Source: an uncultured Flavobacteriaceae bacterium (GTDB lineage: Bacteria > Bacteroidota > Bacteroidia > Flavobacteriales > Flavobacteriaceae). Taken from it: a stretch of 37,236 nucleotides of DNA. Position numbers and translations under genes: made by a program. Shown piece by piece: positions 31,641 to 34,061 of this stretch. The first letter of the stretch is position 1. Every line of letters starts with the position of its first letter. Under the pieces are notes generated by a model, which worked only from the letters and a program-made list of their open reading frames with translations, had not been told where the DNA came from and made no database searches. Location: assembly GCA_937923735.1 (NCBI GenBank), contig CALDUJ010000108.1, positions 1 through 37,236 on the forward strand, written 5' to 3'.

Positions 31641-32207
31641 ATGAAAAGAATATCCTTAATACTTGTTGCTGCAGTTTTAGTTTTTGCCACAAGCTGTAAA
31701 AAAGAAAAAAAAGAAGTCGACACCAAAGTTGAAGAAGTAGTAGAAACTATGGCTTCTAAAAAACTAAAAACAGTGTTATCTCCTAAAAGTGATAGTAAAG
31801 TGTCAGGTAATGTTGTTTTTACAGAAGAAAATGGTGTTGTAAAAATGGTTGCCATTATGGAAGGCTTAACTCCTGGAGAGCATGCCATCCATTTACATGA
31901 AAAAGCAGATTGTACATCTGCTGACGGAAAATCTACTGGTGGTCATTGGAACCCTACATTTAAAAATCACGGAAAATGGGGAGATGTAGCTGGGTATCAT
32001 GCGGGCGATATAGGTAATTTTAAAGCCAACGAAAACGGATTGGCAACAGTAAACTTCTCTACAAGCGAATGGTGTATTGGTTGTGGAGATGAAACTAAAG
32101 ACATAACAGGTAAGGCCGTAGTCGTACACCAAGGCACTGACGATTTTGTATCTCAACCTTCTGGAGCAGCTGGCTCAAGAATAAGTTGTGCAGGTATTAT
32201 AGAGTAG
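31641..32207 (+). CDS. sodC: Cu,Zn superoxide dismutase lipoprotein
   Basis: 188 residues. A lipoprotein signal ends at Cys19 (VFATSC), so the mature enzyme is membrane-anchored in the envelope. It converts superoxide to hydrogen peroxide and oxygen. All metal ligands are present: Cu ligands H84, H86 and H163, bridging H102 (GGHWNP), Zn ligands H110, H120 and D123 (HAGDIGN), active-site Arg180, and the disulphide Cys91-Cys183. An extra C145-x-x-C148 (EWCIGCGDE) lies in the strand before H163 and is not part of the standard fold; it could form a second disulphide. It has its own terminator. The neighbouring sigma/anti-sigma pair may relate to envelope stress, but no shared control is visible. 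Confidence 0.94.
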   Translation: MKRISLILVAAVLVFATSCKKEKKEVDTKVEEVVETMASKKLKTVLSPKSDSKVSGNVVFTEENGVVKMVAIMEGLTPGEHAIHLHEKADCTSADGKSTGGHWNPTFKNHGKWGDVAGYHAGDIGNFKANENGLATVNFSTSEWCIGCGDETKDITGKAVVVHQGTDDFVSQPSGAAGSRISCAGIIE

Positions 32208-32226
32208 CATTTACAAATCATTTATT

Positions 32227-32248
32227 AAAGCCGCTTTATGCGGCTTTT
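32227..32248 (+). terminator. rho-independent terminator after the SOD gene
   Basis: Perfect 8-bp stem aaagccgc (32227-32234) and gcggcttt (32240-32247), loop tttat, followed by tcttttg. It is 20 bases beyond the SOD stop. Confidence 0.88.
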
Positions 32249-32341
32249 CTTTTGTCTAAACATTTAACAAACCTTTAAGATTATAATTCCGTATATGTAT
32301 TGTCCATTGAAAATGGATATTAATATATTGTAAATGATGTT

Positions 32342-32563
32342 ATGATTGAAAAATTTATAAAATCGGGGTTGTTAGAATTGTATGTTGCTGGCACTTTGTC
32401 GCAATACGAAAACGAATGCATATATAGGCTAATGCAAAAGAACAACAAAATAAATGAAGAGGTACTAAATATTGAAGCAGCTCTTTTAAAGTTAACCTCA
32501 TTCCTGTCAATAGGAAAATAGAGTTTCCTCTTTACGATTAAAGATTTCTTTTTTGATACCTAA
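32342..32563 (+). pseudogene. truncated paralogue of the anti-sigma factor N-terminal (sigma-binding) domain
   Basis: An intact 59-codon frame runs from ATG 32342 to TAG 32519-32521. Its product aligns with the first ~60 residues of the anti-sigma factor at 33168 with about 30 identities in 59 positions and one single-residue gap; shared blocks are SGLLELYVAG, LS..EN, Y..MQK, EVL.IE.A and KLT. The alignment goes on in the same frame past the TAG: SFLFTIK follows it where the full protein has KFLFNTIK, then a second stop at 32561-32563. So a longer gene was cut by a nonsense change, and the membrane span and the RskA-like domain are lost. It may be a dead copy, or a free 59-residue sigma-binding peptide that is still made. 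It lies just before the sigma gene, on the same strand. It also accounts for most of the 392-base stretch between SOD and sigma. Confidence 0.8.
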
Positions 32564-32599
32564 TTTTTAATTATTTTCGTGTGCTACTTAAAACCTTAC

Positions 32600-33130
32600 A
32601 TGCAACTAGAACAGCTCGTTAACAAATTCCAGCAAAAAGACATAAAAGCATTTGAAACACTCTATGGAATGTATAGCGATAGCATGCAAGGCGTTATATA
32701 TAATATCGTCAGAGATCAAGACATTGCGCAAGAAGTCATGCAAGACGTATTTATTAAGGCATGGAATAGTGCTGATTCTTACTCGGCAAAAAAAGGACGT
32801 TTTTTCACATGGCTCATTAATATTTCTCGTAATGCAGCGATTGATAAAACACGCTCCAAAGCATTTAAAAATTCTAAACAAAACCTCAACTCCGATTATT
32901 TCGTAGATATCATACAAACGCAAGATAGTTTGGATGACCAAACCGATGCGATTGGCATAAAAAAATTCGTTACCAAACTGGCAGACAAATGCAAGGCCGT
33001 GATTGAGTTACTCTATTTTAAGGGGTATACTCAAAAAGAAGCCTCAGAAGAACTTGACATGCCGATAGGAACGATAAAAACGAGAAACAGAAATTGTATA
33101 AAAGAACTTCGAGAGATGGTTCTTGGATAA
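32600..33130 (+). CDS. ECF-type RNA polymerase sigma factor
   Basis: 176 residues from ATG 32600 (MQLEQLVNKF); a GTG at 32579 would add seven residues, but that lies close to where the promoter should be. Region 2 is at about 12-85 (FETLYGMYSDSMQGVIY, DIAQEVMQDVFIKAW, FFTWLINISRNAAIDKTRS), with region 4 at about 125-172 (FKGYTQKEASEELDMPIGTIKTR). There is no region 3, as expected for ECF factors. The partner anti-sigma gene starts 37 bases after its stop. By the RskA-like partner it belongs with the SigK/RskA-type pairs. Its targets cannot be told; the pair may control its own promoter. Confidence 0.93.
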   Translation: MQLEQLVNKFQQKDIKAFETLYGMYSDSMQGVIYNIVRDQDIAQEVMQDVFIKAWNSADSYSAKKGRFFTWLINISRNAAIDKTRSKAFKNSKQNLNSDYFVDIIQTQDSLDDQTDAIGIKKFVTKLADKCKAVIELLYFKGYTQKEASEELDMPIGTIKTRNRNCIKELREMVLG

Positions 33131-33145
33131 ATAAAATAAAAAAGA

Positions 33146-33163
33146 TTCCTGCATACGCAGGAA
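33146..33163 (+). promoter_or_regulatory. hairpin just upstream of the anti-sigma start
   Basis: Perfect 7-bp stem ttcctgc (33146-33152) and gcaggaa (33157-33163), loop atac, ending 4 bases before the ATG at 33168. The right arm carries aggaag, the only strong Shine-Dalgarno-like sequence near a start in this set, and pairs with the left arm. The hairpin could lower anti-sigma translation, or it may be a copy of a short dispersed repeat. Confidence 0.5.
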
Positions 33164-33167
33164 GTTT

Positions 33168-33974
33168 ATGACTAAAGAAGAATACATAGAATCTGGATTA
33201 TTAGAGCTATACGTAGCTGGAGCCCTTTCTGATAAAGAAAATCAGGAAGTGTATGCCGCTATGCAAAAGTATCCAGAGGTTCTTCAAGAAGTCTTAGATA
33301 TAGAAACTGCAATAGTAAAATTGACTGCCGCCGCATCGCCTAAGCCTTCTAAATTCTTGTTTAATACCATAAAAGAAAAATTAGGTTTAAAGAGTGATGG
33401 CGCTAAAGTCGTAATGCTTGACAAACCAAAATCCAACTGGATGAAGTATTCAGGTTGGGCTGCTGCCATTATTCTTGGTGCAGGATTGCTATGGCAATTT
33501 AACACCAATGGAGATTTAGAAACGCAGCTACAGACTGTAGAAGTAAAAAAAGACGTATTAGAGGCTGAAATAGAAGCTGCTAAAACTAACCTACGAGAAG
33601 CCAATGCCTTTATAAAAACAATACAAAATCGAGATATCTTAACTGTGCCTCTTGGAGGGCAAGCAGTATCACCTAGCTCCTACGCTCAAGTATATTGGGA
33701 TAAGAAAACCAATACGGTGTATTTAGATGCTAGCGGACTCCCTGAACCACCAGAAGGTAAAGTATACCAATTTTGGTCCTTGACATTAAATCCATTAACT
33801 CCAACCGATATGGGTGTTATCGAGAACTTTAGTGGCGACGAAAATAAGATCTTTAAGATTGAAAACCCTAACGACTCTCAAGCGTTTGGGATTACCTTAG
33901 AACCAGAAGGCGGAAGTCCTGGTCCAACGTTAGAGCAACTCTATACTTTAGGGGTTGTGGAGAATGCTTCTTAA
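33168..33974 (+). CDS. membrane anti-sigma factor, RskA-like
   Basis: 268 residues. The N-terminal ~75 residues are the sigma-binding zinc-free domain (YIESGLLELYVAGALS, then MQKYPEV). One membrane span lies at about 93-111 (YSGWAAAIILGAGLLW). A coiled coil follows (about 120-150, KKDVLEAEIEAAKTNLREA), then an RskA-type periplasmic domain (PPEGKVYQFWSL, GGSPGPTLEQLYTLG). It should hold the upstream sigma factor inactive at the membrane until a signal triggers its release. It pairs with the sigma gene 37 bases upstream. A broken copy of its N-terminus lies before the sigma gene. Confidence 0.9.
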   Translation: MTKEEYIESGLLELYVAGALSDKENQEVYAAMQKYPEVLQEVLDIETAIVKLTAAASPKPSKFLFNTIKEKLGLKSDGAKVVMLDKPKSNWMKYSGWAAAIILGAGLLWQFNTNGDLETQLQTVEVKKDVLEAEIEAAKTNLREANAFIKTIQNRDILTVPLGGQAVSPSSYAQVYWDKKTNTVYLDASGLPEPPEGKVYQFWSLTLNPLTPTDMGVIENFSGDENKIFKIENPNDSQAFGITLEPEGGSPGPTLEQLYTLGVVENAS

Positions 33975-34061
33975 ATTAGTATCTTACATTTATGATTCAA
34001 GAAAGCTATTAAGTCTATTGAGATTAGTAACCTTCTTGAACGAATCTCATTCAATAGTAAA

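Follow-up and report, generated by a model that had tools for sequence, protein, structure and literature searches.

In class I anti-sigma domains (ASDI), three helices bind sigma region 4 and, beyond a flexible linker, a fourth helix binds region 2, as set out in the passages on these domains by Casas-Pastor and others (2020; PMC7406223). Helix 4 on region 2 is described there as likely stopping the sigma factor from joining RNA polymerase and as carrying 12 of the 14 strongest coevolving contacts, and the blocking of both sigma regions is suggested to be the core of inhibition. Among described systems, the RskA type of class I factor (e.g., RskA with SigK) is like the 59-codon frame reported here in N-terminal sequence, through the RskA_C-bearing neighbour of the frame, in the predicted three-helix bundle, and in the adjacent ECF sigma gene. 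The frame differs, however, in being without helix 4, membrane helix and RskA_C domain, and in standing before the sigma gene and not behind it.

An anti-sigma domain without a membrane anchor is also found in soluble class I factors (e.g., ChrR), for which a review gives, in the part that treats them, an origin by truncation (PMC8103513). In contrast to the frame, whose fourth helix is cut off, class I domains are defined with that helix in the passages cited above (PMC7406223), and inhibition by the frame is putative. A third parallel is the duplicated NepR of Alphaproteobacteria (PMC4814048), with two NepR in S. meliloti according to the same part of the review (PMC8103513); there, as at the present locus, more than one anti-sigma paralogue is found around one sigma system. 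NepR is nevertheless another kind of anti-sigma factor and belongs to other bacteria. The duplicated NepR copies are whole genes.

Layout of the locus

The window, i.e., the whole stretch of 37,236 nt of DNA that was analysed, contains the following features around the frame.

31641..32207, + strand: Cu/Zn superoxide dismutase gene, before the sigma locus (Pfam Sod_Cu, E = 5e-36)
32227..32253, + strand: inverted repeat with T-run; probable dismutase terminator (judged by eye)
32342..32521, + strand: frame of 59 codons, paralogous to the anti-sigma N-terminus and predicted to cover helices 1-3 (BLASTP, structure model and branch test)
32519..32521, + strand: TAG stop, at the stretch that is the helix 3/helix 4 linker in the full anti-sigma model (model residues 57-63 non-helical, 64-71 helical)
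32522..32563, + strand: helix 4 remnant after the TAG, one codon shorter and ending in TAA (SFLF-TIKD against KFLFNTIKE, P about 0.006-0.009)
32600..33130, + strand: ECF sigma factor gene, 176 aa, closest NCBIfam profile SigK (Pfam Sigma70_r2 and r4; start from relatives)
33146..33163, no strand: palindrome TTCCTGCATACGCAGGAA between the sigma and anti-sigma genes, of a dispersed family (28 genome sites)
33168..33974, + strand: full-length anti-sigma factor gene, RskA type, 268 aa (Pfam RskA_C, E = 3e-17)

The extra DNA that holds the frame sits 3' of the likely dismutase terminator. The best NCBIfam profile for the sigma factor, SigK, scores 122 bits, which is below its cut-off of 226. The most likely start of the sigma gene is ATG 32600 rather than GTG 32579, because the matches to relatives and the gene of the nearest relative (L003) begin there. 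Of the 80 related loci, 51 have a match to Cu/Zn superoxide dismutase upstream and on the same strand, and in 46 of them it ends no more than 200 nt from the sigma match; this recurrence may point to a connection with oxidative stress. The next related sigma gene in the genome (L115, contig C112) is 41% identical and has beside it what, judged by eye, may be its own more diverged anti-sigma gene, with an SGLLE motif near the start.

A paralogue of the anti-sigma N-terminus interrupted by a TAG

The frame opens with ATG, closes with TAG and holds 59 codons. It had been described in a preliminary way as about half identical to the N-terminus of the anti-sigma factor encoded downstream, and the paralogy was to fall if the similarity proved insignificant. 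In a single BLASTP comparison, 30 of 54 residues are identical (56%) and 42 of 54 are positive, ungapped (E = 9e-18), which bears out both the similarity and the paralogy. Within the window's own genome (87% complete), the only matches to the frame at E ≤ 10 are the frame itself and the downstream anti-sigma gene. No family of Pfam or NCBIfam was assigned to the 59 residues at the cut-offs of these collections; two Pfam matches (an antitoxin and DUF6929) are weak and far below the cut-offs. Of the features of RskA-type class I factors, the N-terminal homology is present in the frame, and the membrane helix and RskA_C sensor domain are absent, in agreement with the preliminary description, which gave it neither membrane anchor nor sensor domain: there are 59 residues and no RskA_C match.

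The same description held that homology continues past the TAG, so that the stop lies inside a once longer frame, and this too stands. Read past the TAG, the frame gives SFLFTIKDFFFDT and then TAA at 32561-32563. Anchored where the match should lie, the comparison pairs FLF-TIK with FLFNTIK in the anti-sigma factor. Only 0.58% of 5000 nucleotide shuffles do as well, and 0.9% of 20000 open stretches drawn at random from the window; tblastn similarity likewise crosses the TAG. The truncating change in a once longer frame that marks a pseudogene is present. Nothing of the membrane or sensor parts follows the TAG. Identity to the neighbour's anti-sigma gene is 17 of 27 nt behind the TAG, compared with 92 of 162 nt in the body. 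Since the tail is as close to the anti-sigma gene as the body is, this comparison, which rests on 27 nt, suggests that the TAG may be young relative to the duplication.

Predicted fold and the sigma-binding modules

The AlphaFold2 model of the frame (pLDDT 90.8) has helices at residues 2-7, 10-16, 21-33 and 35-58; it was built with 44 intact relatives in the alignment, and it shows the fold of the family, not the folding of the frame itself. A Foldseek search matched 16 PDB chains at E ≤ 10, and all 16 come from entries of sigma/anti-sigma complexes (RsiW, ChrR, RslA, RskA). Individually, these matches fall short of significance (E = 2 to 9); judging by the residues aligned, the matched chains are probably the anti-sigma ones. 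The VIA-align Z-scores (ChrR entry 2z2s, 7.7; RslA, 6.6; RsiW, 6.0; RskA, 5.0) are middling; for helical bundles, a higher value is needed before a match can be trusted. A domain profile search of PDB sequences returned nothing credible, with five matches at E = 0.02 to 2.4.

The full anti-sigma factor was also modelled; its residues 57-63 are predicted to lie outside any helix and its residues 64-71 to form one, with pLDDT of about 50 in this stretch. That model is poor (mean pLDDT 56) and served only for its helix limits. Helices 1-3, which form a bundle in class I domains, do so in the predicted model of the frame. The fourth helix, the holder of region 2, is not in the frame, and the matching stretch lies behind the TAG. 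The TAG is thus predicted to fall in the linker between helix 3 and helix 4, and the frame would be the region-4 module alone. This narrows what had been proposed at the outset, namely that the remaining part is the one that binds the sigma factor: what remains is a predicted region-4 three-helix bundle, judged by the model and the passages on class I domains (PMC7406223), with the stretch of helix 4 behind the TAG. Since the region-2 helix is lost behind the TAG, a full signal-blind inhibitor, which had also been proposed, is not the natural prediction.

Selection on the frame

If the frame had been free of protein-level constraint throughout its divergence, dN/dS on its branch would be expected to equal one. 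The frame and the neighbour's anti-sigma gene differ at 34 of 35 synonymous and at 36 of 127 nonsynonymous sites (Nei-Gojobori). Because many of these differences could belong to the neighbour's branch, a codon model was used in which the branch of the frame has a dN/dS of its own. Under each of three topologies, a dN/dS of 1 on this branch was rejected (P = 1e-8 to 2e-7), and the frame did not differ in dN/dS from the full-length genes (P = 0.42). For the topology in which the neighbour is the sister, 60 parametric bootstraps of the neutral model gave test values no higher than 6.5, compared with 32.2 observed. The point estimate of dN/dS, 0.07, is unreliable, because the branch length ran to its allowed bound of 15; fixing the branch at 0.5, 1 and 1.5 gave dN/dS of 2.4, 1.2 and 0.8, at a cost of 16 to 19 log-likelihood units relative to the free fit.

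The same test did not reject neutrality (P = 0.077) for an independent, stand-alone N-terminal fragment of this anti-sigma family, of 66 codons, in another genome (L124:1459-1659, genome G079), and the method therefore does not label every fragment as constrained. That fragment is like the frame in being an N-terminal piece of the same family outside a full gene, but many of its conserved second-half residues are changed. It adjoins frames that by eye are efflux-pump-like and ion-channel-like, and no sigma gene was recognised by eye within 3.2 kb around it.

The conserved positions of the family were also considered, taking as near-invariant the 18 columns that have one residue in at least 95% of 102 relatives and that are kept by the neighbour. 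The frame keeps 16 of these 18 (the two changes are Y to F and P to N), and it differs from the neighbour at 22 of the other 36 columns (P = 5e-4 against 2 of 18, Fisher's exact test); the test assigns all 24 differences to the frame, and some of those outside the 18 columns may be the neighbour's. None of 2000 neutral simulations had so few near-invariant changes. These simulations (nucleotide count, conserved columns) place every difference on the branch of the frame and so overstate the case. The claim of selection rests on the branch test of the codon model, to which the test on columns adds support. The frame is old, and during most of the time over which it diverged, selection acted on its protein; this result is for the whole branch and is silent on the time since the TAG. 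Simple decay, as first considered for this frame, is too simple an account of such a history. Against a relic stand the 59 codons that remain open and the almost unaltered helix 1, neither of which would be expected in a gene long dead.

Distribution among relatives

Relatives of the sigma gene were taken as the best 80 of 179 loci, of which one (L042) has no upstream DNA, leaving 79 informative loci with at least 1 kb upstream each. In none of these 79 was a second anti-sigma N-terminus found upstream, with matches up to E = 0.05 considered. The frame is also absent from the nearest relative (L003, genome G002), the one same-genus genome examined that has this gene pair; there, a like dismutase terminator is followed closely by the sigma gene. 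In another genome of the genus (G001, 89% complete), the frame has no counterpart at E ≤ 0.01, and the sigma gene has none above 40% identity. Two loci on one contig of Tamlana nanhaiensis (L006 and L007) are identical in their match and in the 150 nt before it, which may reflect duplication in the assembly.

At the level of the family, 177 of 397 genomes match the frame, and four of these, the window's own included, have two matches. One of the other three is G079, with the 66-codon fragment described above; in the remaining two, the second match is weak (G133, E = 0.006, with two internal stops; G219, E = 0.002). In the order, 63 of 395 genomes, many of them shared with the family sample, match the frame at E = 1e-5, and apart from the window's frame, every match listed belongs to a reading frame of 260 aa or more. 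No relative of the frame turned up in plasmids, phages or viral contigs. Thus, the frame is a single copy kept in none of the related loci examined, where a conserved short gene would recur. A half-domain before its sigma gene was met in none of the titles and abstract starts of open-licence literature retrieved with a few search terms.

Relic or working inhibitor

We consider it fairly probable that the frame, an old, once-selected anti-sigma paralogue that was cut later between its predicted binding modules, is now a relic. It goes back to a second copy of the domain with which an RskA-type anti-sigma factor binds sigma in the cytosol, and this copy was kept as a protein for most of its history. 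Later, a TAG in the predicted linker before the fourth helix cut the copy, which most likely is now a relic. If it is still made, the three-helix bundle would touch sigma region 4 only and could at best inhibit weakly or compete with the full-length factor.

This reading is more probable than one in which the frame encodes a region-4-only mini-inhibitor or decoy, which we regard as possible but rather unlikely. The 59-residue bundle would then bind region 4 of the cytoplasmic sigma factor and either block recognition of the -35 element or compete with the membrane-bound anti-sigma factor, deaf to the envelope signal. Such a role fits an intact frame with its conserved columns kept, past purifying selection and a confident fold. 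Region 4 alone can indeed be bound, as seen in 3hug, in which RslA is complexed with the -35 promoter binding domain of SigL, and soluble anti-sigma factors arose by truncation of membrane-bound ones according to the part of the review noted above (PMC8103513). The palindrome between the sigma and anti-sigma genes could, in addition, have lowered the supply of the full inhibitor. The loss of helix 4 nevertheless removes one of the two contacts whose joint blocking is suggested as the core of inhibition in the passages on class I domains (PMC7406223). In addition, a likely terminator precedes the frame, and no promoter-like signal stands out before it: the scan gave 7/9, which is the commonest score in shuffles, and the region upstream of the sigma gene scored no better, so the scan is weak. 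Finally, the frame is kept in no genome examined. We therefore retain the relic as the preferred reading, and infer that the frame is without function at present.

In either case, the locus places a piece of an anti-sigma factor, cut between two sigma-binding modules, beside its full-length relative. If made, the fragment would test whether the region-4 module alone holds an ECF sigma factor. The weight of the case is modest, as it concerns one copy without relatives in an incomplete assembly (87%).

Spacing of the sigma and anti-sigma genes

The anti-sigma gene starts within -4 to +4 nt of the sigma stop in 76 of 77 relatives, and at 1 nt in 52 of them. The count covers 77 of the 80 loci, two of the others ending before the anti-sigma match (L051, L073) and one having an anti-sigma gene that runs off its contig (L052). 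The two genes of the window are 37 nt apart, with TTCCTGCATACGCAGGAA between them. The one exception among the relatives (Algibacter lectus, L032:3540-3585) has a gap of 41 nt without the palindrome of the window. The usual tight spacing suggests translational coupling, and with a gap of 37 nt this coupling of the sigma and anti-sigma genes has probably been lost in the window, as judged from the spacing.

The core of the palindrome occurs at 28 sites in the window's genome, compared with 0 for a reversed control pattern, and 20 of the 28 were read with their flanks. With its leading GA, the palindrome (GA)TTCCTGC(4)GCAGGAA has 27 sites (16 and 11 by strand), and in this form it has 3 sites in G001 and 4 in G002. 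It can be classed as a REP-like repeat. RNA folding at the junction of the sigma and anti-sigma genes has a z of -2.3, which the palindrome would account for.

Taken together, the separation of the genes and the frame could be read as a rebuilding of sigma control, in which the palindrome separates two genes that are otherwise tightly coupled, and the cytosolic fragment of helices 1 to 3, expressed from a gene of its own upstream, acts as a signal-blind brake or decoy on region 4 only, in the order half-inhibitor, sigma factor, full inhibitor. We regard this as unlikely.

Origin of the copy

A leucine at column 11 is common only to the frame and the anti-sigma factors of the window and of the same genus among 105 distinct rows, and FLF-TIK is common to the frame and the neighbouring anti-sigma factor. 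Both common features speak for a copy made within the genus. It is distinctly unlikely that the copy instead came from another Flavobacteriaceae lineage, and not from the window's own anti-sigma gene, and then decayed. Such an origin would agree with identities of the frame that are 56% to the neighbour and up to 61% to anti-sigma factors of other genera, and with a free tree (78 rows) that places the frame away from the neighbour, with weak support. The leucine and FLF-TIK nevertheless argue against it, and the AU test allows a clade of the frame with the neighbour (P = 0.28) or with the neighbour and its same-genus relative (P = 0.36); these tests concern 54 columns and a long branch, which cannot settle the placement. 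To see whether upstream or sigma DNA had been copied, 32208-32345 was compared with 32560-34000 at the nucleotide level; none of the matches listed falls below E = 0.28. A chance open frame without paralogy has next to no standing and is ruled out by E = 9e-18 over 54 residues without gaps.

Out of frame and 29 nt 5' of the ATG of the frame, at 32313-32324, lies ATGGATATTAAT, which by eye resembles MDIN, the usual start of the anti-sigma gene in relatives; it may be the trace of an older start or due to chance.
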